Assembly (NCBI GenBank): GCA_903822595.1 | Contig: CAIJPS010000002.1 | Coordinates: 1-64,000, forward strand | DNA from: an uncultured Chlorobiaceae bacterium | GTDB lineage: Bacteria; Bacteroidota; Chlorobiia; Chlorobiales; Chlorobiaceae | DNA length: 64,000 nucleotides | Direction of reading: 5' to 3' | Part shown: positions 38,800-57,757 of the stretch, in pieces | Layout: each line of letters starts with the position of its first letter | Position numbering within the stretch: position 1 is the stretch's first letter | The notes under the pieces: model-generated | Told to the model about the DNA's origin: nothing | Databases searched by the model: none | What the model saw: the letters and a program-made list of their open reading frames with translations, nothing else | Translations under genes and position numbers: made by a program

Positions 38800-41700
38800 A
38801 TGATATCGATTACAGATCTGCTCGCCGAACTGGCTGCATTAGACATTCAGCTCAGGGTTGAAGATGGCTTGTTGCATTTCAATGCTCCTGAAGGTGTTTT
38901 TCATGATGAAATCCGTAAAAAAGTTCTGGCCGTAAAACCCGATTTGATTGCATTTCTGCAACAGGAAAGTGGTGCCGCGGTTATCGATGAATCACCGTTA
39001 ACAGATACCGAACGCCGCCTTGCTGCTCTGTGGCGTGAATTTCTTAAATGTGACAAAATTAGAGCTAAAGACGATTTTTTCATTCTCGGAGGACACAGCC
39101 TGCTCTTGATGCGTCTGGTTCTCAGAATTGAATCAGCAGGATTGGGGAAAATTGATCTTTCGCAAGCAATAAAGGCAAGAACTCTTGAAAAAATGGCAGG
39201 AGTGCTTGATGAGGCCGCCAATACACCACCTGCTTTGGAGGTCTGTGAACCGTCCCTGTCAGAATTGCCGTTATCGTCCCTTCAGCTCTTCAGCTCTTCA
39301 CTCACCGGGCTCAGCGATCCTTATCTCCGCGACAGCTCTCTTGCACGGTTATGGCAAAGAGCTGCCAAGCGTTACAGCGAACTGACTGCCATTGTCTATC
39401 GCAATGAAATCTTCACCTATCAGGAGCTTGATGTCTGGTCTTCAACTCTCGCAGCAGCACTTTTTGCTTCAGGAGTGAGAGAAGGCTCCACTGTCGCACT
39501 GGCTGCGACACGAAACGCATCATCAATTGCAGCCATCATTGGCATACTTAAATGTGGAGCGGTCTATCTCCCTCTGGATGACAAGATGCCCCACATATTG
39601 GTAGAGAAGCTGTTGAAATTCTGTGATGCACACTGGATAATTGTCGATCAGGATGGCCTCGAAAGGTATTCAAAGCTTAAGGAGATTCAACTCCTCGAAA
39701 TAAACAAACTGAACACTCTTTCATCCGGCTCAATACTGCCGGATATTCCCGAACAATGTGGCCATAAACCAGCGTATATCATGTTTACCTCTGGTTCAAC
39801 AGGTGAACCAAAGGGAGTAATTATTCCCCACCGCGCTGTTGCTCGCCTCGCGCTCAACAAAAAAGTTATTGCACTTCAACCGGGTGACGGTATGGCGCAG
39901 ACTGCTCCGCTTGCTTTTGATGCATCAACCCTTGAGATCTGGGCGACACTGCTCTCAGGAGCTCGTCTGGTATTCATTGAAGAGAGCTTTCTCTGGCAGT
40001 CGGAGAGACTTGGAAATTTCCTTGCCGAAAAAGGGGTCACTGCCATGTGGCTGACCGCCTCACTCGTCAACCGGATTGCCGACCTCTCTGCACAAGCCTT
40101 CGCTCCTCTCCGGGTTCTCTTGACGGGCGGTGAAGTCTTAAGTGCCCATCATCTTAAAACCGTGATGAAGGCCTGCCCTGATCTTCAGATCTTCAACGGT
40201 TACGGCCCAACCGAAAACACGACATTCACTACCCTCCATGCCGTGACAGCCGGTGATCTGGTAACTGACTCAGTTCCTATTGGCCGTCCCATTGACAACA
40301 CACAGGTCTATGTGCTTGACGAGGCCTTGCAGCCCGTCAATATTGGTGTTATTGGTGAATTATACGCAGGCGGTGACGGCCTCGCGATCGGCTATGCCGG
40401 ACGAAAGGATCTTACCGATCAAGCATTCCTCACGCTGCCCGATCAGCCCGAAATACGAATCTACCGCACCGGTGATCTGGCCCGGTGGCGAATGGACGGC
40501 ATCCTCGAATTTTGTGGTCGGAAAGACGGTCAAATCAAATTGCGCGGACATCGTATTGAAACCAGCGCAATAGAAGCTGTGCTTTCTGACTGCCACGGGG
40601 TTAAGGAGGCTGTGGTGATGGTTGATGGCGAAGGGGAATCAAGAGAGCTGGTCGCATTTTTCACTGCACAGCACAACGATGAAATGCTCTTGCGACACCA
40701 CCTTGCTGAACGGCTTCCCATCTACATGATGCCAGCACGCTTTATCTGGCTTGATGAGTTCAAAGTCAACAGTAACGGCAAAAAAGATCGTACGCTCCTC
40801 AGCAAGATCCTGATCAGAAACCAGGAAGAGACTCCTCTTTCATTCGGTCAGGAACGGCTCTGGATAGTACAGCAAATCACACCCGACATACCTCTCTATA
40901 ATGTACCTCTTGCCTTTGCCATAGAAGGAGAGCTGGATTGTGCGGCACTCAACCGCGCCATTTTCGCTCTCGAAAAGCGCCACAAGTCACTCCGTTCTCT
41001 TATGCGGCCAGCAGACGATACCAATCCGAACATTCGTCATCAACTGCTGCCTCCCGGAGATCTCGTACCCCACATCGTTGATCTCAGTTCATCCCGGGAT
41101 CCTGAAGAGGCCGCAATAAAAGCCATAGCAACTGAAACAGTTCGTCCGTTCCGTCTGGAGGCTGAAATCCCTGCAAGAATCTTTCTCTTCAGACTTGGTG
41201 AACAACAATGGCTGTTTTTCATGGTCATCCACCATATTGCCTGTGATGGATGGAGTTTAGATATTCTTCTGCATGATCTTGCAGCACTCTATGCAGTTGA
41301 GAGAGGGGAAACAGACCACCAGCTTTCACCCATCAGGTACCGGTTTGCTGATTATGTCGATGTCCAGAAGAGCTTTCTGAAAAGCGAACATGGCCAACAA
41401 CTCCTGTTTCGAAGATGCAAACGGTTGACTCCACCTCCGGAACCGCTTGATTTTCCGATCGACCATATTCGACCTCTGAATCGCAGTTATGCCGGTCAGA
41501 CTCTTCACGTCCCTTTCGAAGCATCACTCAGTCAGGGTATTGACCAACTGGCACAAGATGCCGCCGTCACACCCTTTGTTCTCCTGCTGGCAATCGTCGA
41601 ACTGCTCCTGTACCGCATTTCCGGTCATGGAAGAAACGGAAATTTTGCCGTAGGCGCCTTGACATCCGGCAGAGTTAGCGCTGAGATGAGTGACCTCATC

Positions 41701-43956
41701 GGTTTTTTTGTCAATACCGTGGTGATTCCCTGCCATATCAAACCAGAAGAGACGTTTATTGAGCACCTGGCCTCTGTCAGTGAGGAGTGGCAGGCTGCAC
41801 TCTCCGATCAACAGTGCCCATTCGCTCAACTTGTTGAGCGAATGAATATACCGAGAACGCTCTCCAGAAATCCACTCTTTGATGTTCTTGTGGTCTGGCA
41901 GGATCTGCTTCCGGAACCCCCCGACCTGCCGGGGCTGAAAACCCGGCCGGTTGAAACCAGCCTGCCGTTTGCAAAATTTGACCTTTCATTCAACTTTGTG
42001 AAAAATGAGAAAACCATTGAACTTTTTCTTGAATTTTCCAGAGAGCTTTTTGAAGAAGAGACAATCGCCAGAATGGTTCAGCGGCTCCAATCACTTCTTT
42101 CTGCTCTTGTTGACAACCCGCTTGAAACGGTTGCAGAGCTGGATATCTGGATTCCGGGAGAAAAACATCAGGTCATTGAGGAGTTTAATAACACCACGCT
42201 TTCTCTGCCGACTCGCCGTGCCATAACAGAACCTTTTCTGGACACAGCAATTCTTCATGATGCTCTTCCAGCAGTACTCTCTGAGGATAGGTTCGTACAG
42301 AATTATCGCTCTTTTGCACGCCGGGCTGGAGCCATTGCCGCATTGCTTTTAAAAAACGGCGTTCAGCGTGGAGAACATGTTGTTTTACTGCTGCCACGCT
42401 CATCTGAAATGCTTGCCGCAATTTTTGGAATACTCATGGCGGGCGCGGTCTACGTCCCACTTGATCCGACTCACCCTCCACTGCGTCTTTGCGAAACACT
42501 CAAAGATCTTCAGCAACCCTTTGTGTTATGTGATCGATCACTGCCGGAACAACTTGCTCTTTGCTGCCGTCGTATCACTCTCCCGGATCCCGCAGAGGAA
42601 GCAGAACCGGTTTCGCTTGCCTCTCCTGATGATCTGGCCTATATCATCTTTACCTCCGGGTCAACCGGAAAACCCAAAGGGGTAATGATTGAGCATCACG
42701 CCGTACTCAACCGCATCCTCTGGATGCAAAAGACATTTCCGATCGGGCCGGGAGATGTGGTTTTGCAGAAAACGCCGGTAACCTTCGACGTTTCGATCTG
42801 GGAACTCTTCTGGTGGTCATGGACTGGAGCAGCCGTAGCCATGCTCAAACCGGGTGATGAAAAAAATCCGGAAGCACTGGCCGATGCTATCCAGCAACAT
42901 CGAGTCACCATCATCCATTTTGTGCCAGCAATGCTTGCAGTTTTCCTTGACAAGATTGAGAATGGTCGAGTTGACTGCGGTCGTATAGCAAGCCTGCGGC
43001 TTGTTTTTGTCAGTGGAGAAGCACTTGACGCAACGGTTGTGGAACGCTTCAACAGGCTCATTTTTGATCGTCACGGCACTGAGCTTCATAATCTCTATGG
43101 ACCGACGGAAGCGACTGTCGATGTAAGCTGGCAACCTGTTTCCCCATGGCCAACAAAAACAGCCCCACCCATCGGCCGTCCCATAGCCAACACCTTGATG
43201 TACATTCTTGATGAACATCACCGCCCACTGCCGATCGGAATCTCCGGAGAAATTGCAATTAGTGGCGTGCAGGTGGCACGCGGTTATCTGAACCGGCCGG
43301 AACTCACCGCCGAACGCTTTATTGCCGACCCCTTCAAACCAAAACTCCGGATGTATCTTACCGGTGACCTTGGTCGATGGACAACTGACGGAAAAATCGA
43401 ATACCTCGGACGCTCTGACTGGCAGGTAAAAATTCGCGGCCAGCGTATTGAGCCCTGTGAAATCGAACAGACACTTGAGCATTACGGCCAGATCACACGG
43501 GCAGTCGTTGTTGCAGCAGAAAACCAGGGGCTAACCGAACTTCATGCATGGATACAATGCGAAGTGACTCCTGATAGAGCAGCTATTCGGAATTTCCTCA
43601 GGGAACATCTTCCAGAAAGTATGATCCCTGCACGTTTTTTTCCGATTAAACAGCTTCCTCAAACTGCGAACGGAAAACTTGACCGTCAACTGCTTGCGAA
43701 GCAATCACAAGCAATTCTTGCAGCTCCGTCAGACCGCAAAACTGGGAAAGGTGATCATAAACAGGTTGCCCTGACCTCCGGCTTTACGCTTGACGAGGCA
43801 ACTGAAAGCCTGAAACTCACTCTTGGCTTCAATCCAGCAATGATCTCCGCGTATGATTCGGATACGCTCGCCAGAAGGTATTTCGCCATGCTTCAGGAGA
43901 TAGTCAATCAAGCTTCTGATACAGAGGCACCTGGAAAAATTAATTTTACAGCGTAA
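38800..43956 (+). CDS. NRPS with TubC-like dock, T-A-C-A and a condensation-domain tail (1718 aa)
   Basis: Residues 1-50 match a TubC N-terminal docking domain (LLAELAALDIQLRVEDGLL), followed by T (Ser100, LGGHSLL), A1 about 180-670 (Asp374), C about 690-1110 (HHIACDG at 811), and A2 about 1150-1635 (Asp1330). T comes before A in the first unit, and A2 has no T after it. By-eye codes are DALWLGGTFK (8/10 to Val, DAFWIGGTFK) and DVWHFSLVDK (8/10 to Ser, DVWHLSLIDK). Residues about 1652-1712 are not a carrier; they resemble the last part of a C domain (LKLTLGFNPAMIS, TLARRYFAMLQEIV). The upstream partner for the dock and the carrier for A2 must be other proteins; the A-less T at the start of the 48218 protein is the best candidate for the latter. 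Confidence 0.9.
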   Translation: MISITDLLAELAALDIQLRVEDGLLHFNAPEGVFHDEIRKKVLAVKPDLIAFLQQESGAAVIDESPLTDTERRLAALWREFLKCDKIRAKDDFFILGGHSLLLMRLVLRIESAGLGKIDLSQAIKARTLEKMAGVLDEAANTPPALEVCEPSLSELPLSSLQLFSSSLTGLSDPYLRDSSLARLWQRAAKRYSELTAIVYRNEIFTYQELDVWSSTLAAALFASGVREGSTVALAATRNASSIAAIIGILKCGAVYLPLDDKMPHILVEKLLKFCDAHWIIVDQDGLERYSKLKEIQLLEINKLNTLSSGSILPDIPEQCGHKPAYIMFTSGSTGEPKGVIIPHRAVARLALNKKVIALQPGDGMAQTAPLAFDASTLEIWATLLSGARLVFIEESFLWQSERLGNFLAEKGVTAMWLTASLVNRIADLSAQAFAPLRVLLTGGEVLSAHHLKTVMKACPDLQIFNGYGPTENTTFTTLHAVTAGDLVTDSVPIGRPIDNTQVYVLDEALQPVNIGVIGELYAGGDGLAIGYAGRKDLTDQAFLTLPDQPEIRIYRTGDLARWRMDGILEFCGRKDGQIKLRGHRIETSAIEAVLSDCHGVKEAVVMVDGEGESRELVAFFTAQHNDEMLLRHHLAERLPIYMMPARFIWLDEFKVNSNGKKDRTLLSKILIRNQEETPLSFGQERLWIVQQITPDIPLYNVPLAFAIEGELDCAALNRAIFALEKRHKSLRSLMRPADDTNPNIRHQLLPPGDLVPHIVDLSSSRDPEEAAIKAIATETVRPFRLEAEIPARIFLFRLGEQQWLFFMVIHHIACDGWSLDILLHDLAALYAVERGETDHQLSPIRYRFADYVDVQKSFLKSEHGQQLLFRRCKRLTPPPEPLDFPIDHIRPLNRSYAGQTLHVPFEASLSQGIDQLAQDAAVTPFVLLLAIVELLLYRISGHGRNGNFAVGALTSGRVSAEMSDLIGFFVNTVVIPCHIKPEETFIEHLASVSEEWQAALSDQQCPFAQLVERMNIPRTLSRNPLFDVLVVWQDLLPEPPDLPGLKTRPVETSLPFAKFDLSFNFVKNEKTIELFLEFSRELFEEETIARMVQRLQSLLSALVDNPLETVAELDIWIPGEKHQVIEEFNNTTLSLPTRRAITEPFLDTAILHDALPAVLSEDRFVQNYRSFARRAGAIAALLLKNGVQRGEHVVLLLPRSSEMLAAIFGILMAGAVYVPLDPTHPPLRLCETLKDLQQPFVLCDRSLPEQLALCCRRITLPDPAEEAEPVSLASPDDLAYIIFTSGSTGKPKGVMIEHHAVLNRILWMQKTFPIGPGDVVLQKTPVTFDVSIWELFWWSWTGAAVAMLKPGDEKNPEALADAIQQHRVTIIHFVPAMLAVFLDKIENGRVDCGRIASLRLVFVSGEALDATVVERFNRLIFDRHGTELHNLYGPTEATVDVSWQPVSPWPTKTAPPIGRPIANTLMYILDEHHRPLPIGISGEIAISGVQVARGYLNRPELTAERFIADPFKPKLRMYLTGDLGRWTTDGKIEYLGRSDWQVKIRGQRIEPCEIEQTLEHYGQITRAVVVAAENQGLTELHAWIQCEVTPDRAAIRNFLREHLPESMIPARFFPIKQLPQTANGKLDRQLLAKQSQAILAAPSDRKTGKGDHKQVALTSGFTLDEATESLKLTLGFNPAMISAYDSDTLARRYFAMLQEIVNQASDTEAPGKINFTA

Positions 43957-43970
43957 CAGAATCGTCGCAC

Positions 43971-46900
43971 ATGAAAATCGCAGACTTCATTTTTGATGAT
44001 CCATCATCAGCCGTTGCCTCGGGGGCTCTTAACGCTGAATCGTCCACGTGTTCAGGCAACATTGCTTCACGTTTTTCCATAATCGCAGCACGTCATCCCT
44101 TGCGCACTGCGGTTGTTGATGAAGAGGGCTCAATGACCTACGCAGAACTGAATGAGCTTTCAGACCGAATAGCTCACCTCTTGCGTCATCAACAGCTTCA
44201 GCCGGAGAGCCGTGTTGGCGTCATGATGGGACGAAGTCGCTTCTATATTGCGGCTCTTTTCGGAGTCATAAAAGCCGGTTGTGTCTATCTCCCGATTGAT
44301 CCTACACTGCCCCTCGAACGTCGCAGCAGACTTCTTTCAATTGCCAATGCGAAAGCTCTCATTACCTCTGCCGACAGTGCTGGCGACATGCAACGGCTGG
44401 AGTGGCTCAATTCCGGGTTGCAATTCAGTCTCACACTTGACTGTGACGATGTTGACTCTCTGGTTGAAACACCAGGAGAACTGATGTCCACTGAACTTTG
44501 GGATCATATTGCCGGTGAGGCCGCCAATGACATTGACGCCGGGGGATGGAAAAGCGCATTTACCGGACTTCCGATAACTCCATCAGCAATGGAGACATTC
44601 GGTGCAAATGCATGCAATAAAATTGCACCCTGCCTCAAGCCAGGAGCCCGTGTACTGGAAATCGGCTGTGCATCCGGCTTTACCATGCGCCACACGGCTC
44701 CTCTTGCCGCATCTTATCTTGCCACTGACCTCTCAAGGCACAACGCCGAGCGGGTCGAAGTTATTGCACGCAATCTTGGTCTGCAACAGGTTAGCAGTCG
44801 TCAACTGGCTGCTCATGACATTGACATTCTGCCCGAAGGAAGTTTCGATCTTATTGTAATGAACAGCGTGATTGAAAGTTTTCCGGGTTATGGCTATCTC
44901 CGCAATGTGCTCGACAAGTTGGTAAACCTGCTGGCTCCGGGGGGAGTTTTGTTTCTCGGTAATCTGTGGGATCTTGAACGTCAGGAAATCTATCTGGCCG
45001 ACCTCGCAAAATTTGCCAGAGAACACGCTGGCGAGGGTTATTCTACCCGAAGCAATTTGAACGGCAGTTTTTTTGTCTCATTCGCCTTTTTCCAGGACTG
45101 GGCTGCACGGCGTATTGAACGGCCATCAATTAAGCGCTCACCAATTGATGCTCCCGGCTTTGATCCGGCACCCTACTCTTTTGACGTTATTATCAGCTTT
45201 GACAAACTCGGCGAGGGAATCGCATCAAATGAGAGAAAAACTCCTCTGCATTTTGATCGCAGAGCACTGGTTCCTGAGAACCCCGTTCAACCCTCGGCAG
45301 AGATCAGTTCGTCTCAAGGGGCCTATATCATATTTACAAGCGGTTCAAGCGGACAACCAAAAGGAGTGCTTGTTGAACATGGATCGGTCATCAATCTGAT
45401 CCATGCGATTGAAGAAGAAATCTATACACCGCTCTTAATGAGGATTGACGCTGAGTTCCTGAACATCAGTTGTTGTTTCTCTTTCTCTTTTGATGGTTCT
45501 ATTCATCAAATCTTCACCCCCCTGCTTAATGGTCATACCCTGCATCTGCCAAATGAGGATACTCGGCAGGACCCTGAACGTTTACATCGTTTTTTTGAGT
45601 CGCACGAACTGCATGTCGTCGATGCCACACCAAGCCTTTTTGCACTCCTGCTTGACTATTGGCAGGAGAGAGGAATCGGCAGTTCAGCGATCTGTTTCAT
45701 CCTCGGTGGTGAGACGTTCAGCACAAAGCTTCCGGAACGGTTGTACGCTCTCCCGGGCACTCTCAACAGTGAGATATGGAATGCCTACGGGCCTACAGAG
45801 TGCTGTGTGAACGCCTGCCACTACAGGTTAACTTCAACCAACTGGCATGAAATTTTACCGCCACCAATCGGCAGGCCTATGTCGGGTATTGACATCAAAC
45901 TCTGTGATAAGTCCGGCAGGTTACTGCCAGTCGGGATACCCGGTCAAATCTTGATCGGCGGTGCAGGAGTAGCCCGTGAATACATCAACGAACCTGAACT
46001 GACAGCTCGTCACTTTCTCGTGGATGAAGATGGCAAACGATGGTACTGTACCGGTGATATCGCTCGCTGGATTGAGACCGGCCTCCTGCAATTCATAGGT
46101 CGGGAGGATCGGCAGGTCAAAATACGCGGCTACCGTATAGAACTCTCTGAAATCGAATCTGCGATGCTTGCCTCTCCCCTTGTTCGTCAGGTCGCCGTAG
46201 TTGTCGCAGATCCCCGTCAGGATGGAGACCGCATCCTGGTTGCCTGGGTTGTTGCAAGCCCCGGCTTTGATGCCGTACGTTGCCGCGCTGATCTTGATCT
46301 GCATCTCCCCGCATGGATGATGCCAACATTGATTGTTGAGATTGATGAACTGCCTATCAACAGCAATGGCAAACTTGATGAGCACCGTCTGCCATCACTG
46401 CACAAAAAAGAGCTGTCGAATTCGAATGCACAAATGCAAATTCCCTTTAGCCGGGATACAGAACGCAAGCTTGCTGAATTGTGGCAGAAGCTTCTTGATG
46501 TGCCTATCAACTCTGCTGAGGATGATTTTTTTATGCTTGGAGGTCACAGTGTTCTTGGAATACGGCTTGTTTCTCTCATTGAAACCGGATTCGGTGTAAA
46601 ACTGCCTCTTGCCGAGCTTTTTACCTCAACAACAATAGCCCGGATGGCCGATCGGATAGAAGCAAAACAGGCTGCCTTCAAATGGCATTCCGTTGTTGCT
46701 GTAAATCCCTTCGGTGAAAGAACGCCCTTGGTCTGCTTTCATCCGGCGGGAGGCAATGTACTTTGCTATAAAGCGCTTGCTGATGCTCTTGGCCGTGAGT
46801 GGCCGATGTACATGGTTCAGTCCTCGGGACTTGAAGCCGGGCAGTCGCTGCAGCCATCAGTGGAATTGATGGTCACCGGATATCTGCCTGAATTACAGGA

Positions 46901-47495
46901 GATAATCCAGGATCGGCCGATCATACTGCTTGGATGGAGCTTTGGCGGTTTGCTGGCCTGGGAGGCAGCAGAGCGGTTACGAAAGTTCGGAACAAAAATT
47001 GAACGTGTTATTCTTCTTGACAGTATAGCCTCGCCCGATCCGATACGAAGCATCCTGCAAAAGGATGAGGCTGATTTTATTGCCTCAATGTTCGATGAAA
47101 TGGGACTCGGAAGCGCTGAATATTTACGCACGTTGACTCCTGACGAACGCCTCGACAGAATTATTCAACAGGTACGCAGCAATGACTATCTGCCCGAAGG
47201 TCTTGATCGTCAGCATATGCGTCGTCTTCTTGCTCTTTTCCAGAATAACGGTCTGGCTGCACTGCGTTACCAACCTCGAAAAAGTGAGGAGCGGATACTC
47301 CTCATTCGCCCGAAGCTTGCATCCAGCCAGGCACCGGGTATTCCAGGTGACGACTATAACGGCTGGGCCCAACTTTGCAACAATGGAGTGAAATTATGCT
47401 GGATCGATGGAACACACGGTCAGATGCTGATCCATCCTTTTGTTCAACGGTTGGCAGACCATATCCGCAATTATACAGAGCAGATAAAGGAATGA
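43971..47495 (+). CDS. NRPS termination module: A domain interrupted by a methyltransferase, T, thioesterase (1174 aa)
   Basis: The A domain runs from about residue 25 but is split after the AGCVYLPIDPT (a2) motif near 102. Residues about 140-440 hold a SAM methyltransferase (VLEIGCASGFT around E230, then MNSVIESFPGYGYLR and LAPGGVLFLGNLWD). The A domain resumes at IIFTSGSSGQPKG (a3), with Asp508 and the SNGKLDEH a10 motif near 798. T has Ser860. The thioesterase has GWSFGG with S990, LLDSIAS, and GTHGQM with H1149, so hydrolysis or cyclization is expected. By-eye pocket code DGHDIGAVNK has no match I know. There is no C domain, so one must act in trans. TE here versus reductase in the first NRPS argues for two products. 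Confidence 0.9.
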   Translation: MKIADFIFDDPSSAVASGALNAESSTCSGNIASRFSIIAARHPLRTAVVDEEGSMTYAELNELSDRIAHLLRHQQLQPESRVGVMMGRSRFYIAALFGVIKAGCVYLPIDPTLPLERRSRLLSIANAKALITSADSAGDMQRLEWLNSGLQFSLTLDCDDVDSLVETPGELMSTELWDHIAGEAANDIDAGGWKSAFTGLPITPSAMETFGANACNKIAPCLKPGARVLEIGCASGFTMRHTAPLAASYLATDLSRHNAERVEVIARNLGLQQVSSRQLAAHDIDILPEGSFDLIVMNSVIESFPGYGYLRNVLDKLVNLLAPGGVLFLGNLWDLERQEIYLADLAKFAREHAGEGYSTRSNLNGSFFVSFAFFQDWAARRIERPSIKRSPIDAPGFDPAPYSFDVIISFDKLGEGIASNERKTPLHFDRRALVPENPVQPSAEISSSQGAYIIFTSGSSGQPKGVLVEHGSVINLIHAIEEEIYTPLLMRIDAEFLNISCCFSFSFDGSIHQIFTPLLNGHTLHLPNEDTRQDPERLHRFFESHELHVVDATPSLFALLLDYWQERGIGSSAICFILGGETFSTKLPERLYALPGTLNSEIWNAYGPTECCVNACHYRLTSTNWHEILPPPIGRPMSGIDIKLCDKSGRLLPVGIPGQILIGGAGVAREYINEPELTARHFLVDEDGKRWYCTGDIARWIETGLLQFIGREDRQVKIRGYRIELSEIESAMLASPLVRQVAVVVADPRQDGDRILVAWVVASPGFDAVRCRADLDLHLPAWMMPTLIVEIDELPINSNGKLDEHRLPSLHKKELSNSNAQMQIPFSRDTERKLAELWQKLLDVPINSAEDDFFMLGGHSVLGIRLVSLIETGFGVKLPLAELFTSTTIARMADRIEAKQAAFKWHSVVAVNPFGERTPLVCFHPAGGNVLCYKALADALGREWPMYMVQSSGLEAGQSLQPSVELMVTGYLPELQEIIQDRPIILLGWSFGGLLAWEAAERLRKFGTKIERVILLDSIASPDPIRSILQKDEADFIASMFDEMGLGSAEYLRTLTPDERLDRIIQQVRSNDYLPEGLDRQHMRRLLALFQNNGLAALRYQPRKSEERILLIRPKLASSQAPGIPGDDYNGWAQLCNNGVKLCWIDGTHGQMLIHPFVQRLADHIRNYTEQIKE

Positions 47496-47497
47496 AT

Positions 47498-48196
47498 ATG
47501 CTTGATCGCCATACCATCCGGCTATGGACGCATGAGTTTCGGGAAGTAACAAATTCTCCTCCACGGTGGCTTGCACTTCTTGATGAAAAAGAGCGGATGC
47601 ATTGCAGGCTGTTCCGACAGGAAAAAGACCGTATTGCCTATGCGGCGGCACATGCCCTGCTCCGCATGGCACTCAGCCGGACTTTGGAGCTGCCGCCAGC
47701 AGCCCTGATTATCGATCATGACAGGATGGGAAAACCTTTCCTCAATATGCCTGGCTGCATGGGTATGGCTATCACACTCTCTCATACTTCAGGCATGGTT
47801 GCTGTCGCTCTCAGTCAGGCAGGGAGTATCGGTGTCGATGTCGAGGCCATTAATCGCAAAAATATTCCTCATAATAATTTATCAGCGTATGGCCTGAGCC
47901 ATGAAGAGATTGCAATGCTTGCATCGCTCTCTTTTCATGAACGCTGTGAAGCATTTATCGATTTTTGGACAGCACGCGAAGCTGTGGCAAAAGCTGACGG
48001 ACGGGGTCTTTCACTTCCGTTCTCTGACATAAGGATTGATCTCTCAATGAACAAAGCCACTATTCATGAGAACGGGCCATCGCCCTCCTCTCACTGGACG
48101 CTGTGGCGTGAACAACCCTCCTCTCTTTACCGACTGGCACTGGCCTGGCCGCAGGGAAAAGGAGCATTCACAAGAATGAACGAACAACTTATTTGA
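47498..48196 (+). CDS. Sfp-type 4'-phosphopantetheinyl transferase
   Basis: Converts apo carrier (T) domains to the holo form by adding the CoA phosphopantetheine arm; all ten T domains of this locus need it. The signature motifs are SIGVDVEAI (Mg-binding acids) and FWTAREAVAKADGRGL, where the family usually has W-x-x-K-E-A; here Lys is Arg. IDHDRMGKPFL and LSHTSGMVAVAL are also Sfp-like. The frame is open far upstream inside the previous gene, but AAAGGA lies 6 bp before the ATG at 47498, which gives 232 residues, the usual size. An ATG at 47492 overlapping the TE gene stop is the alternative. Confidence 0.9.
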   Translation: MLDRHTIRLWTHEFREVTNSPPRWLALLDEKERMHCRLFRQEKDRIAYAAAHALLRMALSRTLELPPAALIIDHDRMGKPFLNMPGCMGMAITLSHTSGMVAVALSQAGSIGVDVEAINRKNIPHNNLSAYGLSHEEIAMLASLSFHERCEAFIDFWTAREAVAKADGRGLSLPFSDIRIDLSMNKATIHENGPSPSSHWTLWREQPSSLYRLALAWPQGKGAFTRMNEQLI

Positions 48197-48217
48197 ACGT
48201 GCATACGCATACCTACC

Positions 48218-51200
48218 ATGACTACTGAATCGCACGAATTCTGGCGCACACTCCTTGCTGAGCTTCCCTCACTACGGTTCTCTGCAGATAGTCCATACCT
48301 GTCATCAAGCGCCTGCACTAACGAACCTATCGTCATTGAGCATCTTTTTGACAGCGTTCAAACCCGTCGTCTCAGCGCGTTTGCTGAAACACATGGCATC
48401 ACGTTCAGTTCGCTGCTTCTGGCGGTACATATGAAGGTATTGTCAATGCAGATTCCTGGTCGGCGATTCGTGACCGGTATAAAGGTAAACGCAGCCGAGG
48501 ATGAAAACCCGCTGCCTCTGGTTTTTGATGCGGCAAGCCAGCATGAAAGCTGGAGTGATCTTGCACGCCATATCTCTCTTCTCGAAGAGTCGAGTCGTCA
48601 ACATAGCGAGGATATGACCCTTGATGAACTGGAAGCTCTTTGCACTCGATCCCCACTCTTTGACACCCTTTTTTCTTTTAATCAGAGCCTCCCGGACAAG
48701 CCTGCAGAAAACCTTCAACGTGATCTTGAAGCCAGAATTCATGCATTGTGGCAAGCACTTCTGCCCGGCGCTGAGTTCAGTGTTGATGACGGATTTTTTG
48801 ATGCAGGGGGCAATTCACTGCTGCTTGTTCGTCTGCATGAAAAGCTTGAATCCCATTGGCCCGGAGTCTTCAGTGTTGCCCGCCTTTTTTCAGTTACGAC
48901 AATTGCCGCTCAGGCCCGCTGTATTCAGGAAAAAAACGAAAAGAAAGATCGTAATCTTACCCACACGACAAAGGATCGAGTAACAAAAACACCCGGCCAT
49001 ATTGCAATTGTTGGCATTGGAGTCTCTCTTCCAGGAGCAACAACACTGGAAGCATGCTGGCATGATGTCGCAAATGGTATTGATAAAGTCAGCTCGATAC
49101 CTGAGGATCGATTCAAGGAGAGCGTCACCATGCTCAATGCCCTCGAAAGAACGATCCCGGAACAGTTTCAGGAAGCCGCCTGGCTTGAGCAGATTTTCAA
49201 TTTTGATCCTGAACGTTTTCGCCTCTCACCTGCGGATGCCGCCCTTGTTCACCCCGAGCAGAGGCTTTTTCTTGAAACTGCGCTGATGGCCCTTGAAGAT
49301 GCCGGTTATGGAGGCAAGTCGCTGGACAATGAAAAGATCGGAACCTTTGTCGCAACAAGTCAAGGTGCGGTCTGGACCGATTATGCTTTGAGGGTACTAC
49401 CCGAGCGGGCCGAACAGCTCTTTATCAACAATGTACCCTCCAATGTCGCTACCCGTCTCTCTTTTCTGCATAACTGGCGCGGACCGGCAACCCTTGTCGA
49501 TACGGCATGTTCATCAGCACTGACCGCAGTACATCTGGCCTGTCAGGCACTCATCAGCGGCGAATGCACTGCCGCACTGGCCGGAGGCGCCAGATTAATG
49601 CTGATACCGCACTCATCGGCAGCACGCTTCACCATCGAATCATCAACTGCCAGAACCCATGCGTTTGACGAAAGTGCTGACGGCACCGGTTCAGGAGAGG
49701 GATCAGTTGTCTTTTTACTGAAAACCCTTGAACAGGCAAAATCAGATGGCGATGCAGTGCATGCACTGATTCTGGGAACGGCAATCAACCAGGACGGAGC
49801 TTCAACCGGAATGGCTGCTCCAAATCCGGCAGCACAGTCAGAGGTAATTACCGCAGCGGCGGTCAAAGCCGGCGTGCCGCTTGCATCCATCTCCTATATT
49901 GAGGCACACGGCACAGGTACCCATCTCGGTGATCCTGTCGAAATTGAGGGTATCAACCTTGCTTTTTCCAGGCAGAGCAGTGAAACCGGTTTTGCCCTTA
50001 TCGGTTCAGGAAAAGGTAACTATGGCCATCTTGACTCCTGTGCAGGTGCTCTTGGACTGCTTCGCGCAGTATTATGCCTGAAAAACGACCAGGCGCCACC
50101 ACAGCCATTTTTCTGCTGCGCGAACCCCCGGATCAATTTTTCCAACTCTCCGGTACGGGTTAGCAGTGAGCTGCTTTCGCTGCCTGATCGTGGCAACGCG
50201 CGCCGCGCCGGAGTCAGCTCTTTCGGACTAAGCGGAATAAATGTCCATGCCATTATTGAGGCTCCGCCACCAGTTACTCACATCCCGGCGACCATGTATT
50301 CCGGATGGACTGTGATCGGCCTCTCAGCCGCAACCAGGGAGTTGCTCCTTAACTCGGCAGCTTCGCTTCTGTCACTGATCCATCTGAGACCTGATTATCC
50401 GCTTGCAAATATTGCCTATACCCTCAATACTGGCCGTGATACACTATCGGAACGATTTGTTGTCTGGGTGCAAAACCGGGAGGAGCTGCTCACTGCACTT
50501 GACTCTTTTCTCAAGGGAGAAAAACTCCAGAGAGCAATAACGGGTTCCGCAGGACGCCGTCAGAGGCAGCAATCAAAACCCCCTGTTTCAGCTCTTGCTT
50601 CTGATGAGCCATCAGCACGCCTTGCTGCCGAATCCTGGGCTGAGGGTGCCGAGCTTGTGTGGCCTCAGGAGCAGCAGGTCAGCCGTCTTCACCTTTCTCC
50701 CTCCCCCCTGCAAAGGATCAGGTGCCATCCTGATCCTCACAGAGAGAGTGCCGTACACCCCATAAAACCAATACCTCTCCAGGTACCGATTGATACTCCT
50801 GATGGGATACGTTATCCTCTCGATGTTCACGATCCTGCTTTCTGGCCTGTCAGCGAACACAGACTCGGAGGAGTTCCGACCCTTGTCGGGATGGGGCTGT
50901 TACCTCTTCTTGCCGATACACTTGACGCAAGCAGTGGGAAATTCCTGCCATTTGCCATCAAGGAGATCTCCTGGCTGCGTCCTCTTCAGACCCCCTCGAT
51001 CAAGGCGGGAAGCGTCAGCCTGCTCATCACTGACCCTGAAGCAAAAGAGCAGCATGCAATACTTGGAGGAAAAACAGTTGACGGAACCTGGAAAAATTTT
51101 GCCGAGGCAACCTTGTGCAAACTTCCGTCCGTACCGCCTCCGGCGCTCAAAGCTGAAGAGTTACAAGAGAGAAGAGGCAAACTTATTCCAACCAGTGTTC

Positions 51201-54200
51201 GCCTGAGTGAAGCAACTGGAGAAGTCAACGTCAGCAACAGATGGAACTGCCTGATTGCAAAAGGAGATAACGGCAATGAACTCACCGCTCACCTTGAGCT
51301 GCCCGATAACGGTTTTGAAAGCAGAAATTTGCAGAACCTTCATCCCGGAGTTCTCGACACCGCCGTAAGCATTGTTCTGGATCGTGCCGGGCTCATACCT
51401 GCAAGTTGCGCCGAAGTGTTTCTCTGGCTGCCACTGCCGAAAAAGGTGTTTGTCTCCGCCGTTCGGAACCCCATGGCGGATGGAGGAGTTACCGCCGACG
51501 TGAATCTCTATGATATGGAGAGCGGTGCGCTCTGTATCTCATTTAAAATGATGCGTTTTATAGTTTCGGCAAAGAACACGGAGATACAAAAAAATCCGAT
51601 AAAGGTGACCGTCGTACCCTCATTTCCTGTATGGGTCGCTGATCAGACAGCAAGCAGGAGTCTCTCTCCTCTTCCTGCGCTTGTTGTCATTGGTGAGGGT
51701 GATTTTTTCCGAAGAGTAACCGATCACCCGATAGTCAAAAAAAGTCTTGTTGCATCATGCAATTCAACAGCACTCACTGATACCGTAACAAGGGCTATAG
51801 CTGACGGCATTGTACAACACGTTCTCTTTCTGCCAGCACCGGGCGAGGATGCCGGAATCCGCACCCTCGTCACTCTTCGCTCTCTTATAAAGAACATGCA
51901 TCAACCCCTGCAGCTTCTGGCGGCAGGGTCCGGGGCCTATTTAATGACAACCAAATCCGACTCTTTCATGACAGGCCCCTACACGGCACTTGTAGCAGGG
52001 CTTGTTAACGTCGCAGCATGTGACGAGGCGATGCTTTCGACCAGATATCTGGAACTGGAAAAAGAGGCGCCGATTGAGGCTCTACTTCAGGAAATCGAAT
52101 CAGGCAACAACCATACGCAATCACCGGTATTGATCGATCAATCCGGCAGACGCTTTAAGCGCAGCTTCGCTCCCCTTTCCGATTTTCCTGCACCGGCAGC
52201 AACACTCTGGCCGGGCTCTGGCTGTTGTGTCATCAGCGGCGGTACCGGCGGACTTGCACTGCTGCTCGCCGAGGAGCTTGCTTCCGGAGGCAGAGTGTCG
52301 CTTGCACTGCTCTCCCGCCACCCTCTCGAACAGAGTAACGACAGTGACTCACAAAGACGTCTTGAACGACTGGAGGCGCTCAGCAGGAAAGGCATTACGT
52401 TCCGCCACTGGTGCGTCGACGTCACTGACCTTGAAAAACTCTCCGCTGTACTCAACGATGTACGCAATGTACTTGGCCCAATCACGGCAGTGGTTCACCA
52501 TGCCGGTCTCGGTGAGAGTCGTATTCTCATTAACGAAACCCCGGAATCGTTTACAGCGTCAACCGCAGCCAAGGTGAAGGGTGCACACAATCTTGATCTG
52601 CTCACTCGCAACGACCCAATCGCAGCGTTTATTCTTGCAGGTTCGTTGAGCGCACTTGAGTATCGTGCCGGAACAGGTGCCTATGCAGCAGCAAATCTCT
52701 TTCTTGATGCCTTTGCCCTCTGGCGACTCAGTGAGGGGCGACCGGCACAGTGCATAGAGTGGTGTCAGATCGGAGAAATGGGAATGGCATCCAGAATCCT
52801 CGACGGTAAATTGGACGAGTACAGTCTGACCCCCAAAGAGGTTGTTCTCAATTGGCGAACAGCACTTGCCTCAGGAGCACCTCAGGTTGCCCTGCTCTAC
52901 GACGAAAAAACTGATAAGAAAACAGAGGCCGTAGCTTCAACTTCAGAACAATCCAAAACACTGGAAAAGGCTTTGGCAGAGATTTGGGCAGAGATACTCG
53001 GCTATGAAAGCATTGAATTCGATGACGACTTCTATGCTCTCGGAGGGGATTCAATGTCAGGAATCGATATTATTGATCGCATCATCAAAGATCTCGGTCA
53101 TCCGGTTACCTTCACCGATCTCGTTGAGTCCGGCACAGTCACGATGCTGGCTGAACGGCTGCGCCGCCAGGCTCAGACTGCAAACAGTGCGGCAAACTCG
53201 CGCAACATCCAGCTCCCCACAACCGCTCCGGAAAAGAGTCGCTATCCCCTGAGCTGGGAACAAATGGCACTTATTCAAGCCCAGATGGCGGCAGAAAAGA
53301 GCATCGCATATAACTTGCCGAACATACTCTCGCTGCCACCCGACTGCAACGCAGATCGGCTTGAATCGGCCCTTAACGCCCTTATGGCGCATCACGAAAT
53401 CCTCCGCACCCGTTTTCATTTCAATGGCATCGAACCAGAAATGGAGATACTCTCCGAAGTGCGGATACAACTGAAACGCATTTGCCCGATAAATGGAATA
53501 ACTTCTGATTTCTGTCGCAACTGGGTTCATCCCTTTGACCTTGAAACGGCTCCCCCGGTACGCTTCGAACTGGTCGAGAAACCTGACGGCACACCGCAAG
53601 CCCTCCTTTTCGATATCCATCACACTCTTGCCGACGGTCTCAGCCTTGAATTGCTCACAAGCGATCTTGGTAACCTCTATGCAGGAAAAAACCTGCCCCC
53701 ACTCGCCTTGCAGCTCAAGGATTACGCATGGTGGAGTCGCAAGGGGGCGGGAATCGAAGCTGTGGAAAGAGCAAAACTCTATTGGCTGGATCGTTTTTCT
53801 TTACCTCTGCCGGTACTTGATCTGCCTTCTGATCGTCCTCGGCCGGCATTTCATAAGTGGCAGTGCGGCAGCGTTGCCTTCAGTCTGCCAGAGAAGAGTG
53901 TAGAGGCCTTGCGCCGATATGCTGCAACACACAGCACCACACCCTTTACCGTCGTACTCTCTGCCTGGGCAGCACTGCTGGCCCGATATTGCCGTAATGA
54001 GGATCTGGTTATTTCCGTTCCGGTAGATGCAAGGGAGAGTCTCGGCGCAACAGGAGTACCTGGCATGATGGTATCACTTCTTCCATTGCGATTTTCCTTC
54101 CACGATAACGAGTCGGTAGAGAGTTTCATCCGAGGCGTCCATACTGACCTTGCAGATGCGATGCGCCATCGTGCATGCCCGCTCGGAATGCTTCTTGAAG

Positions 54201-57200
54201 CGCTTGCCCCACCGGCAGCACCTGAACGAACGCTGCTCTCTGAGGTGACCCTTTCATACATGAACTATGCTGAAAGTAAAGGGGGAGATCGTGACGATAA
54301 AGAGGCGTTCCGTCTTACGGGTATCGAACGCGGCGACGGAAAGAACGATATCTCCATCTTTATGCGAGATCTCCCCGATCAGATAAGCGTCGTCTGTGAA
54401 TACTATTCCGCCATGTATGATCAAGAGCGCATTGAACGCATGGGAGAACACTTCTCCGTTCTGCTTGATGCACTGCTGGAATCGCATACCGACACGAAAC
54501 TCTCCATGCTTCCTTTGCTCACAGTGGAAGAAGAGAGCTGGCTTGAAGGGGCTGGAAACGCCATGGATTATCAAGTGCAGAGAAGGGGTAATCTCTTTGC
54601 TCATTTCGCTGCAACAGTACAACAACAGAATAACTCCATTGCCGTCTGCGATAACAGGGAGCGACTCAGCTACAGCGATTTATTGTACCGTGCTGGCGGC
54701 ATTGCAGAGTACCTCTCTGAGACCGGTGTTTGCGAAGGTGATATTGTCGCCCTGCACATCGAACGAAGTTGTACCGCCGTAGCCACAATTCTTGGAATCA
54801 ATGCCGTCGGTGCCTGTTATCTGCCTCTTGATCCATCGTATCCACCGCTCCGTATTGCATTGATACTTGCTGATGCACAATGCCGGGTAGTGATTGCTGA
54901 CGCAGCCGGTCGCAAGGCATTGGCTGAAGCTGCCTTGATGGAGCAAAATGAAGCCGGAACAAAGGCTGACGGCGATGTACCGATTCAATATGTGACAATT
55001 GATGCAGAAAAGATGGCTCTGCTCTGCACTCCCCCCCCCGCAACGAACCGTGGGGATGACCTGCTTGCATACCTTATGTACACCTCCGGCTCCACAGGTA
55101 TACCTAAAGGGGTAAGGATCTTCGAACACTCGATCATCCACCTCGTCATTTATGACAACTATATAACATTCAAGCCAACAGACCGCATACTTCAGGTTGC
55201 ATCTTTTGCGTTTGATCTTTCAACCTATGACCTCTGGGGCGCGCTTCTCAACGGAAGCCAGCTCTTCATTTCTGATCGTAACGACATTCTTGATCCGATG
55301 GCTCTCGCAGAAAATCTGAAGCGACTGAACATCAGCGTCATCGCAATGCCTACCGGCCTCTTTCACCGGCAGGCAGAAGTAATGCCTGAAAGTTTTTCCA
55401 CCCTCAGGGCGGTCATTGCCGGCGGAGAGGCCATGAGTACGGAGCTTATGCGCAGAGTCATGAAAGCCTCTCCTGAAACCGCATTTTTCAATGGTTACGG
55501 CCCAACTGAAAACACAACATTTACAACTGTCCATAAAGTCTGTCATCAGGATCTGAAAAAAGAGAGTTTGCCCGTCGGCCGTCCAATCCCTCAAACCATA
55601 GTGCGAGTGCTCGACCAGAACGATAAAAAAGTCCCGATCGGTATATGGGGTGACATTGTTACAGGCGGTGAAGGGATTGCAGATGGCTATCTGAACCGTC
55701 CGGAGCTGACGGTTGAGAGATTTTTTTATGGAGAGGACGGTATCTATTATTATCGGACAGGTGACCTTGGACGATGGAGACGGGATGGTATTCTTGAATT
55801 CGGAGGACGCAAGGATGGTCAAATCAAACTAAGAGGCTTCCGTATCGAACCGGGTGAAATTGAGGAGGCACTTTTACAACACCCTTCAGTAGCCGGAGCT
55901 GCGGTTCTCTTTCGACGGGAAACAGGTGAGCTCATTGCCTGTTTACTGACCAGGAATGAAGCACTTGAGGCTACCGAACTTCGTTCCTGGCTTATGCATC
56001 GCATTCCATCCTATATGGTGCCTGCCCGCTTCATCAGACTCACTCACCTGCCAGTCAATTCCAATGGCAAACTTGACCGCATCCAGCTCAATCTGGACGC
56101 GAATAACGGAGAGATCATATCCGACAGTAATGCCACGTCCGGAGGATTGCCTTCAGGCGAAACCGAAAAGATGGTCGCTGAGGTTTTTTCCGAAATCTTC
56201 CAGCATCCTGTAGAAAATCGCAACGTGAGTTTTCTTGACCTTGGCGGTCACAGCCTCATCATCATCAAGGCCATCAACCGTATCGCCCAGCGTTCAGGCA
56301 TCCGGCTCACCATAAACAACTTTTTTGCCACTCCCACCGTCGCCGGGCTTGCCTCATGCATTGAGACTGGCAAACACCATGATGCTGGAGAGCTCAGGAT
56401 TCCCCGCGCTCCGGAAACCGCATTTCCTTTTGCCAGCCACGCTGAAGAGCGGCTCTATCTGGTAAACAGTCTTGATGCGACTTCCGCTGCCTACAACATG
56501 ACCTTCTTTTTCCGTGCAGGAACCGATTTTAATGCCGATACGCTTCATGAGGCACTTCTGGCGCTTGTTGAGCGTCATGAATCTCTTCGTACCGGATTCG
56601 AAGAACGAGATGGCATAATTGTTCGTCAAATCGAACCTGTCGAGGCGATCACCATCGGATGGAGTGAAGATGATCTGAGCAGGTATGCCAACCCGTCAGT
56701 CGAAGCGCTCCGGTTAACGGAAAAGGAGGTTTCGCAACCCTTCAATCTCAATAAACCTCCGCTGCTGCGCGTCAGAGTGATACGCATTTCAAAAGAGCAG
56801 ACACTCATTCTCATCATAACGCACCACATCGTTAATGACGGCTGGTCATCACGTGTTTTTTTACGTGAATTGCAGCAGTCGTATTCCGCTGCAGCAAAAG
56901 GAAGCAGGGCCAAATTCCCCCCGTTGCCTATCACAGTTCGCGATTATGCGCTTTGGCAGCGAACCCGAGACTGGTCAGAGACAGCAAGCTGGTGGAAAAA
57001 CACCCTGGAGGGTGCTCCTGGACGGATTGAACTTCCCTGTGATCGACCTCTGCCTGATGTCCCTACGAACAAGGGTGCCATCTTAAAAAAAGAGCTGCCA
57101 CAGGAGACCGCCGAGGCGCTTAAGCAGATTGCTCTCCACAACGGCGTGAGCATGGCTGCGCTGGGGCTGGCCCTTTTTTCCGCCCTTCTCTTTCGCCTGA

Positions 57201-57757
57201 CCCGCCAGAACGAACTGGTCATCGGCATGGGTGTTGCAGGACGCGACAGCGCTGAACTGGAAGGTCTGATCGGTTTTTTTGTCAATGTTTTGCCCATCCG
57301 CATCAAACTGGATCAGGAGAGTGAGTTTGACAGCCTTCTGAACGTTGTTCACAAGACGCTTATGGAAGCCCTCGAGCATCGTGATTATCCCTTCGACTGC
57401 CTGATACGGGATCTGGCGCCAAAACGTACCGGAAACCGGCAGCCTCTTATCAATGTGGTCTTTGAGTACCAGCGGTTTGAACCGGTCAACACGGCACTCA
57501 TTTTTCCTCCGGCTCCGGATATCAGTGTATCTTTTGCCCGTTCACTGGAAGAAGTAATTTATTCAAAAACCGCCAAGCACGACTTGCTCCTCTTTTATGT
57601 TGACCAAGAAAAACATACCGCGCTGATGATCGAATACGATACCGATATTTTCGATACGCTGACCATCGAACGATGGCTATCCTATTTCATTCAATTAGCC
57701 CACCATCTCTGCATCGAAAATTCAGCAGCGGCTGGTTCCGGGAGTGAAAAGCCATGA
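48218..57757 (+). CDS. Hybrid NRPS-PKS: partial C, T, KS-DH-KR, T, C-A-T-C, no acyltransferase (3179 aa)
   Basis: Residues 1-160 are a fragment of a condensation domain: the later lobe only, without HHxxxDG, ending near PLFDTLFSFNQ. T follows (Ser200) with no A domain. KS about 260-690: Cys431 (DTACSSA), His564 (EAHGTGT), His604 (NYGHLDS), all intact. DH about 835-1120: H881 (EHRLGGVP) and D1047 (HPGVLDTAV). KR about 1330-1550: GGTGGLALLLAEEL and Tyr1489. T Ser1612. C HHTLADG at 1801. A Asp2333, by-eye code DLYAIGGTFK (no match known). T Ser2679. A complete terminal C, HHIVNDG at 2869. No AT lies between KS and DH, so malonyl must come from a trans-acting AT. KR plus DH predicts a two-carbon unit with a double bond. 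The stop overlaps the next NRPS start (ATGA). Confidence 0.92.
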   Translation: MTTESHEFWRTLLAELPSLRFSADSPYLSSSACTNEPIVIEHLFDSVQTRRLSAFAETHGITFSSLLLAVHMKVLSMQIPGRRFVTGIKVNAAEDENPLPLVFDAASQHESWSDLARHISLLEESSRQHSEDMTLDELEALCTRSPLFDTLFSFNQSLPDKPAENLQRDLEARIHALWQALLPGAEFSVDDGFFDAGGNSLLLVRLHEKLESHWPGVFSVARLFSVTTIAAQARCIQEKNEKKDRNLTHTTKDRVTKTPGHIAIVGIGVSLPGATTLEACWHDVANGIDKVSSIPEDRFKESVTMLNALERTIPEQFQEAAWLEQIFNFDPERFRLSPADAALVHPEQRLFLETALMALEDAGYGGKSLDNEKIGTFVATSQGAVWTDYALRVLPERAEQLFINNVPSNVATRLSFLHNWRGPATLVDTACSSALTAVHLACQALISGECTAALAGGARLMLIPHSSAARFTIESSTARTHAFDESADGTGSGEGSVVFLLKTLEQAKSDGDAVHALILGTAINQDGASTGMAAPNPAAQSEVITAAAVKAGVPLASISYIEAHGTGTHLGDPVEIEGINLAFSRQSSETGFALIGSGKGNYGHLDSCAGALGLLRAVLCLKNDQAPPQPFFCCANPRINFSNSPVRVSSELLSLPDRGNARRAGVSSFGLSGINVHAIIEAPPPVTHIPATMYSGWTVIGLSAATRELLLNSAASLLSLIHLRPDYPLANIAYTLNTGRDTLSERFVVWVQNREELLTALDSFLKGEKLQRAITGSAGRRQRQQSKPPVSALASDEPSARLAAESWAEGAELVWPQEQQVSRLHLSPSPLQRIRCHPDPHRESAVHPIKPIPLQVPIDTPDGIRYPLDVHDPAFWPVSEHRLGGVPTLVGMGLLPLLADTLDASSGKFLPFAIKEISWLRPLQTPSIKAGSVSLLITDPEAKEQHAILGGKTVDGTWKNFAEATLCKLPSVPPPALKAEELQERRGKLIPTSVRLSEATGEVNVSNRWNCLIAKGDNGNELTAHLELPDNGFESRNLQNLHPGVLDTAVSIVLDRAGLIPASCAEVFLWLPLPKKVFVSAVRNPMADGGVTADVNLYDMESGALCISFKMMRFIVSAKNTEIQKNPIKVTVVPSFPVWVADQTASRSLSPLPALVVIGEGDFFRRVTDHPIVKKSLVASCNSTALTDTVTRAIADGIVQHVLFLPAPGEDAGIRTLVTLRSLIKNMHQPLQLLAAGSGAYLMTTKSDSFMTGPYTALVAGLVNVAACDEAMLSTRYLELEKEAPIEALLQEIESGNNHTQSPVLIDQSGRRFKRSFAPLSDFPAPAATLWPGSGCCVISGGTGGLALLLAEELASGGRVSLALLSRHPLEQSNDSDSQRRLERLEALSRKGITFRHWCVDVTDLEKLSAVLNDVRNVLGPITAVVHHAGLGESRILINETPESFTASTAAKVKGAHNLDLLTRNDPIAAFILAGSLSALEYRAGTGAYAAANLFLDAFALWRLSEGRPAQCIEWCQIGEMGMASRILDGKLDEYSLTPKEVVLNWRTALASGAPQVALLYDEKTDKKTEAVASTSEQSKTLEKALAEIWAEILGYESIEFDDDFYALGGDSMSGIDIIDRIIKDLGHPVTFTDLVESGTVTMLAERLRRQAQTANSAANSRNIQLPTTAPEKSRYPLSWEQMALIQAQMAAEKSIAYNLPNILSLPPDCNADRLESALNALMAHHEILRTRFHFNGIEPEMEILSEVRIQLKRICPINGITSDFCRNWVHPFDLETAPPVRFELVEKPDGTPQALLFDIHHTLADGLSLELLTSDLGNLYAGKNLPPLALQLKDYAWWSRKGAGIEAVERAKLYWLDRFSLPLPVLDLPSDRPRPAFHKWQCGSVAFSLPEKSVEALRRYAATHSTTPFTVVLSAWAALLARYCRNEDLVISVPVDARESLGATGVPGMMVSLLPLRFSFHDNESVESFIRGVHTDLADAMRHRACPLGMLLEALAPPAAPERTLLSEVTLSYMNYAESKGGDRDDKEAFRLTGIERGDGKNDISIFMRDLPDQISVVCEYYSAMYDQERIERMGEHFSVLLDALLESHTDTKLSMLPLLTVEEESWLEGAGNAMDYQVQRRGNLFAHFAATVQQQNNSIAVCDNRERLSYSDLLYRAGGIAEYLSETGVCEGDIVALHIERSCTAVATILGINAVGACYLPLDPSYPPLRIALILADAQCRVVIADAAGRKALAEAALMEQNEAGTKADGDVPIQYVTIDAEKMALLCTPPPATNRGDDLLAYLMYTSGSTGIPKGVRIFEHSIIHLVIYDNYITFKPTDRILQVASFAFDLSTYDLWGALLNGSQLFISDRNDILDPMALAENLKRLNISVIAMPTGLFHRQAEVMPESFSTLRAVIAGGEAMSTELMRRVMKASPETAFFNGYGPTENTTFTTVHKVCHQDLKKESLPVGRPIPQTIVRVLDQNDKKVPIGIWGDIVTGGEGIADGYLNRPELTVERFFYGEDGIYYYRTGDLGRWRRDGILEFGGRKDGQIKLRGFRIEPGEIEEALLQHPSVAGAAVLFRRETGELIACLLTRNEALEATELRSWLMHRIPSYMVPARFIRLTHLPVNSNGKLDRIQLNLDANNGEIISDSNATSGGLPSGETEKMVAEVFSEIFQHPVENRNVSFLDLGGHSLIIIKAINRIAQRSGIRLTINNFFATPTVAGLASCIETGKHHDAGELRIPRAPETAFPFASHAEERLYLVNSLDATSAAYNMTFFFRAGTDFNADTLHEALLALVERHESLRTGFEERDGIIVRQIEPVEAITIGWSEDDLSRYANPSVEALRLTEKEVSQPFNLNKPPLLRVRVIRISKEQTLILIITHHIVNDGWSSRVFLRELQQSYSAAAKGSRAKFPPLPITVRDYALWQRTRDWSETASWWKNTLEGAPGRIELPCDRPLPDVPTNKGAILKKELPQETAEALKQIALHNGVSMAALGLALFSALLFRLTRQNELVIGMGVAGRDSAELEGLIGFFVNVLPIRIKLDQESEFDSLLNVVHKTLMEALEHRDYPFDCLIRDLAPKRTGNRQPLINVVFEYQRFEPVNTALIFPPAPDISVSFARSLEEVIYSKTAKHDLLLFYVDQEKHTALMIEYDTDIFDTLTIERWLSYFIQLAHHLCIENSAAAGSGSEKP

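Follow-up and report, generated by a model that had tools for sequence, protein, structure and literature searches.

A condensation-domain C-lobe split between two Chlorobium-type assembly-line proteins, a candidate docking pair for loading a carrier in trans

INTRODUCTION

How assembly-line proteins recognize one another, and how an adenylation (A) domain finds a distant carrier (T), are central questions for enzyme engineering. The docking classes described include the beta-hairpin/SLiM, COM, four-helix bundle and DHD types, of which COM and DHD exploit a catalytic domain's surface (PMC9113145). Pieces or copies of NRPS domains are known in related settings. In the thermoactinoamide pathway an assembly-line protein starts with ThdA C*, a condensation (C) domain that is N-terminally truncated and inactive (PMC7253712), and the PCP-like adaptor of TomB in the tomaymycin pathway is a non-catalytic NRPS-domain copy that recruits a carrier from another protein (PMC11186497).

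In an intact C domain the C-terminal sheet has the strand order 7-13-12-10-8-9, strand 11 being given to the N-lobe sheet as the latch, and the floor loop between strands 8 and 9 makes the second crossover to the N-lobe (PMC9547227). Latch and floor regions have also been described for another C domain (PMC7804268). Here we examine two complementary C-domain fragments at the ends of two proteins from a Chlorobiaceae genome, which an initial annotation had read either as deletion scars or as an interface that takes an A domain to its carrier.

RESULTS

The gene cluster

The window, the whole stretch of 64,000 nucleotides that was analysed, comes from a genome of 3.04 Mb whose closest named relatives are Chlorobiaceae metagenome genomes, and Pfam and motif scans placed an NRPS/PKS cluster at 21393 to 62418 (Table 1). 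The open reading frames of the 38800 and 48218 proteins were as annotated initially.

Table 1. Features of the cluster, with positions in the window
Feature	Position	Strand	Basis
21393 protein: 4 A, 3 C, 4 T and a terminal reductase			Pfam/motif scans
Lone C/E-type protein, motif HHMIIDAASW, epimerase-like	34026-35261		
ABC transporters	35478 and 37124		Pfam/motif scans
NRPS protein TubC_N-T-A1-C-A2-b, 1718 aa	38800..43956	+	Pfam domains, ORF, homologues of 1723-1730 aa in relatives
A2 adenylation domain, without T after it	42200..43689 (bounds approximate)	+	Pfam AMP-binding 1163-1497
Fragment b, C-lobe end (strand 12, strand 13, last helix)	43756..43917	+	hhalign columns 389-445, controls; AlphaFold
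Intervening NRPS protein: A with methyltransferase inside, then T, thioesterase	43971..47495	+	Pfam
4'-phosphopantetheinyl transferase	47435..48196	+	Pfam ACPS, E 5e-16
Fragment a, C-lobe without last two strands and helix, without latch, floor loop short	48218..48706	+	Pfam, hhalign, loop lengths
Orphan carrier T (FFDAGGNSLLL), 14-16 residues past fragment a	48734..48925	+	Pfam PP-binding 173-236
Hybrid protein a-T-KS-KR-T-C-A-T-C, 3179 aa	48218..57757	+	Pfam
57754 protein: C-A-T-C			Pfam/motif scans

Several features of the cluster were recorded alongside. In the 38800 protein (TubC_N-T-A1-C-A2) a T precedes A1 at 38800-39400, the reverse of the usual A-T order. The methyltransferase of the 43971-47495 protein sits in the A domain before the A3 motif, between a2 and a3 (Pfam), the rarer insertion site among interrupted A domains. 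The KS-KR unit at 48218-57757 has no AT domain in its own protein, and Pfam found no AT in the cluster proteins scanned; it is therefore probably trans-AT. Tandem C domains face each other across the gene border at 57000-58000, with HHIVNDGWS in the C-terminal C of the 48218 protein and HHIAVDGRA in the N-terminal C of the 57754 protein, and the final C of the latter has the degenerate motif HHLIMDYTT. Two related genomes (G059 and G043; L029, L031) lack the 38800-57754 genes but encode both ABC transporters and a 21393 homologue; the cluster may therefore consist of two separable units.

Two fragments that make up one C-lobe

The fragments were compared, as family alignments, with a C profile made from 43 full C domains that the window and its relatives encode. 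Fragment a is residues 1-163, the N-terminus of the 48218 protein. Pfam Condensation matches residues 4-154 at profile positions 193-356 of 456 (E 7e-6), and in the profile-profile comparison (8 sequences) the fragment occupied columns 193-370 of 476 with a score of 90.5 (P 3e-13), the best of 60 shuffles scoring 20.5. In the 38800 tail, where fragment b lies, Pfam gave no match up to E 10. The profile-profile comparison placed b at columns 389-445 with a score of 37.2 (P 2e-5), a match that rests on seven sequences of a short fragment; the best of 200 column shuffles scored 18.8. As a native control, the best 88-residue window from the non-C parts of both proteins scored 24.3. Since the fragment scores lie far above those of shuffles and native windows, both are pieces of a C-lobe that fit end to end. 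Thus the C-domain fragments recognized initially by eye were upheld on stronger grounds than before, with both assigned to the C fold rather than to another, and the interval first given, 43753-48690, lies close to the aligned stretches (43756-43917 for b and 48233-48700 for a).

The structural models were of unequal quality. For b, AlphaFold predicted a strand at 28-35, a strand at 40-47 and a helix at 54-77, with a core pLDDT of 84-89, and the columns that are hydrophobic in all sequences follow the same strand-strand-helix pattern. A PDB profile search with b returned a single match, a designed helical protein at E 0.8, and Foldseek with the b model alone gave uninformative noise. Fragment a alone was modelled poorly (pLDDT 62, strand 10 not formed), and the fold matches of this weak model were C/Cy domains, AmbE among the top, at E 0.03-0.1 and probabilities of 0.85-0.98. 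By sequence, its best PDB match was McyA C (E 3e-7), followed by AmbE and TycC C.

The two fragments share no profile column and jointly give one C-terminal lobe. Fragment a ends after strand 10 and is followed by a T, not by an A in cis, whilst b supplies strands 12 and 13, which in the published topology lie in the middle of the sheet rather than at its edge, and the last helix. The 18 columns missing between them (371-388) fall between strands 10 and 12, and match the latch. The floor-loop segment, measured between the glycine of strand 8 and the proline of strand 9, is 14 residues long in each of the eight copies of a and 24 residues long in all 24 intact C domains that could be parsed; the conserved R and GxFVN motif of intact floor loops is missing from the shortened segment, which is 10 residues shorter. 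Measured against the Condensation family (PF00668), the C-lobe is thus present, as judged by the controlled profile matches, and the N-lobe with its HHxxxDG is absent from both fragments. By alignment, both elements that need an N-lobe, the latch and the floor loop, are gone from the split lobe. The scan of the cluster proteins found no other C tail and no other tail-less lobe; a different cluster partner for a or b was rejected, as the remaining C domains and the E-like 34026 protein have their own ends.

The unpaired A and T domains

The 38800-62418 genes encode five A and six T domains, and one T is the carrier of the KS-KR unit, leaving five non-PKS T domains. When these are paired by order, one A and one T are left over, A2 and the first T of the 48218 protein, and the initial observation that A2 lacks a T and this T lacks an A was borne out by the Pfam and motif scans. 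A2 runs into b, and the orphan T comes after a. The A2 code, read by hand, is DVWHFSLVDK, which we take to be of the serine type, and it is identical in the other genomes whose A2 was readable.

Conservation among relatives

An alignment search found fragment a in eight same-genus (Chlorobium-type) genomes and in none further among 395 genomes of the phylum. Of 150 relatives searched for the tail, the same eight carry b. This co-occurrence is weaker evidence than it looks, since the genes travel as one cluster, and the correlation of a and b distances across genomes (r 0.95) reflects shared descent only. The layout is the same in all eight: wherever a genome has both ends, b closes the 38800 protein and a opens the 48218 protein, and in one genome (G033) the two ends lie on separate contigs. 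The fragments sit at the C-terminus of one protein and the N-terminus of another from a single pathway, as a docking pair would. A local assembly error was excluded by the recurrence of the same junctions in eight genomes, where relatives carry the split and not intact domains; the intact ancestral domain was not found among the relatives, and other Chlorobium clusters carry different proteins.

Identity falls to 42-50% in the most distant pairs, between which synonymous sites are near or past saturation. The dN/dS ratios were 0.15-0.44 for a (whole length) and 0.20-0.56 for b. The core of b is conserved while the linker from A2 to b drops to 19-30% identity, and the extreme C-terminus past b is also poorly conserved. 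Compared with A2, T and KS, the fragments show lower identity and somewhat higher dN/dS; the orphan T is 80-96% identical in relatives. These ratios indicate that a and b are under purifying selection, which argues against a decaying scar, although partial decay could also give the lower identity and higher dN/dS of the fragments.

Some individual cases complete the survey. In one genome (G026; L028 1-4067) the 38800 homologue is cut inside A2 by the contig end, and neither a nor b was found there. At 43954-43971 the 38800 protein of the window is 7 codons shorter than in relatives, a CAA (L017/L018) being TAA here; this early stop falls after the last helix of b, and the relatives' gene overlaps the next gene by ATGA. 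A lobe-T lookalike on Agrobacterium plasmids was discarded, its tblastn match being an ordinary A-T overlap. An exact-peptide scan of 85,000 species, which reaches near relatives only so that distant cases may exist, returned Chlorobium-type genomes only.

DISCUSSION

A split lobe as a connector

We consider it fairly probable that the split lobe, cut at the latch, is a natural docking pair that presents A2 to the first T of the 48218 protein in trans. Fragment a would give strands 7-10 and the helices of the C-lobe, and b, contributing strands 12 and 13 and the last helix, would slot into it. The closed lobe would have no catalytic function and would act as a connector. One chain would run from A2 through a linker of about 30 residues into strand 12, the other from strand 10 through a linker of about 14 residues to T; because strands 10 and 12 are neighbours and the split falls between them, both linkers would emerge side by side, which would place A2 and T at a module-like distance, as if in one module. 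A2 could then charge the T, probably with serine, and the following KS would take over the aminoacyl starter. As the last condensation and the release seem to be carried out by the C of the 38800 protein and the T-TE of the 43971 protein, the connector would tie the end of the line back to its own start, with 48218 as the putative first protein. We give roughly even chances to the broader claim that this is a new docking class, in which a catalytic-domain lobe is cut at the latch and strand complementation clamps an end-of-line A onto the first carrier of that same line, so that its two ends are joined. Counting against docking of a with b, a C-lobe left free could use its hydrophobic notch to bind elsewhere.

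Of the two readings offered initially, the evidence favours the interface: the predicted partners complement each other exactly, have lost both crossovers to the N-lobe, evolve under purifying selection, co-occur in eight genomes and set the sole orphan A opposite the sole orphan T. A mere scar seems quite unlikely. That reading has a module C-A-T-C-A broken by deletions, leaving non-functional pieces that never meet. The positions are those that deletions would leave, b standing after A2 and ahead of the A in the following gene, as expected of a C tail, and the constraint on a and b is weaker than on the catalytic domains. Yet leftovers would have had to persist in eight species whose synonymous sites are saturated, with dN/dS still well below 1, to lose the latch and floor crossovers cleanly in every copy, and to keep the core of b but not its linker, while the orphan A and T would be useless or unassisted.

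It is also unlikely that the fragments have separate roles, a capping the starter T in the manner of C*, b packing on A2 or on the 43971 A, and A2 loading the T unaided. Truncated C* domains before starter modules are known (ThdA of thermoactinoamide, PMC7253712), and b lies directly upstream of the 43971 gene. On its own, though, a would lack two mid-sheet strands of the published topology and b would be merely strand-strand-helix with a poorly conserved extreme C-terminus past it, and the complementarity of the two would be a coincidence. That the split lobe docks the proteins to pass on the chain or to shape the assembly as a whole, and not to let A2 load the T, appears very improbable. In its favour, docking pairs usually serve transfer between successive proteins, and the 38800 and 43971 proteins end the NRPS line with a TE; the first T of the 48218 protein, however, would need another A, none being free in the cluster.

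The phrase 'split condensation domain' was not found in the open-access literature, and a natural split-domain connector of this sort seems not to have been described before. If the docking pair is real, a natural and probably tight split lobe without N-lobe contacts would be a ready-made connector, able to set A and T domains of different proteins at a module-like distance, and a broken module would have been turned into an interface rather than lost.

Comparison with known systems

By Pfam the fragments belong to no described docking family, a matching only Condensation and b nothing up to the E value given above, and the 38800 protein already carries an ordinary TubC_N docking domain at the end opposite to b. 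Like NRPS/PKS docking domains, a and b match each other across two proteins, b closing its protein and a opening its own; unlike them, they are two parts of one catalytic-fold lobe, and their putative job is A-to-T loading, not chain transfer. McyA and AmbE, dehydrating/modAA C domains that a resembles in sequence, are complete two-lobed enzymes with HHxxxDG, whereas a has no N-lobe. Fragment a shares with ThdA C* that it is an N-terminally truncated C domain opening an assembly-line protein; C*, however, stands directly before an A in the same starter module (PMC7253712), whereas here a is followed by a T, and both the A and the end of the lobe belong to a different protein. Like the TomB adaptor, the split lobe is a non-catalytic NRPS-domain copy with a putative role in carrier recruitment across proteins, but that adaptor is a whole, unsplit PCP-like fold that brings a T to a C domain, and is not a device for loading a T from an A.
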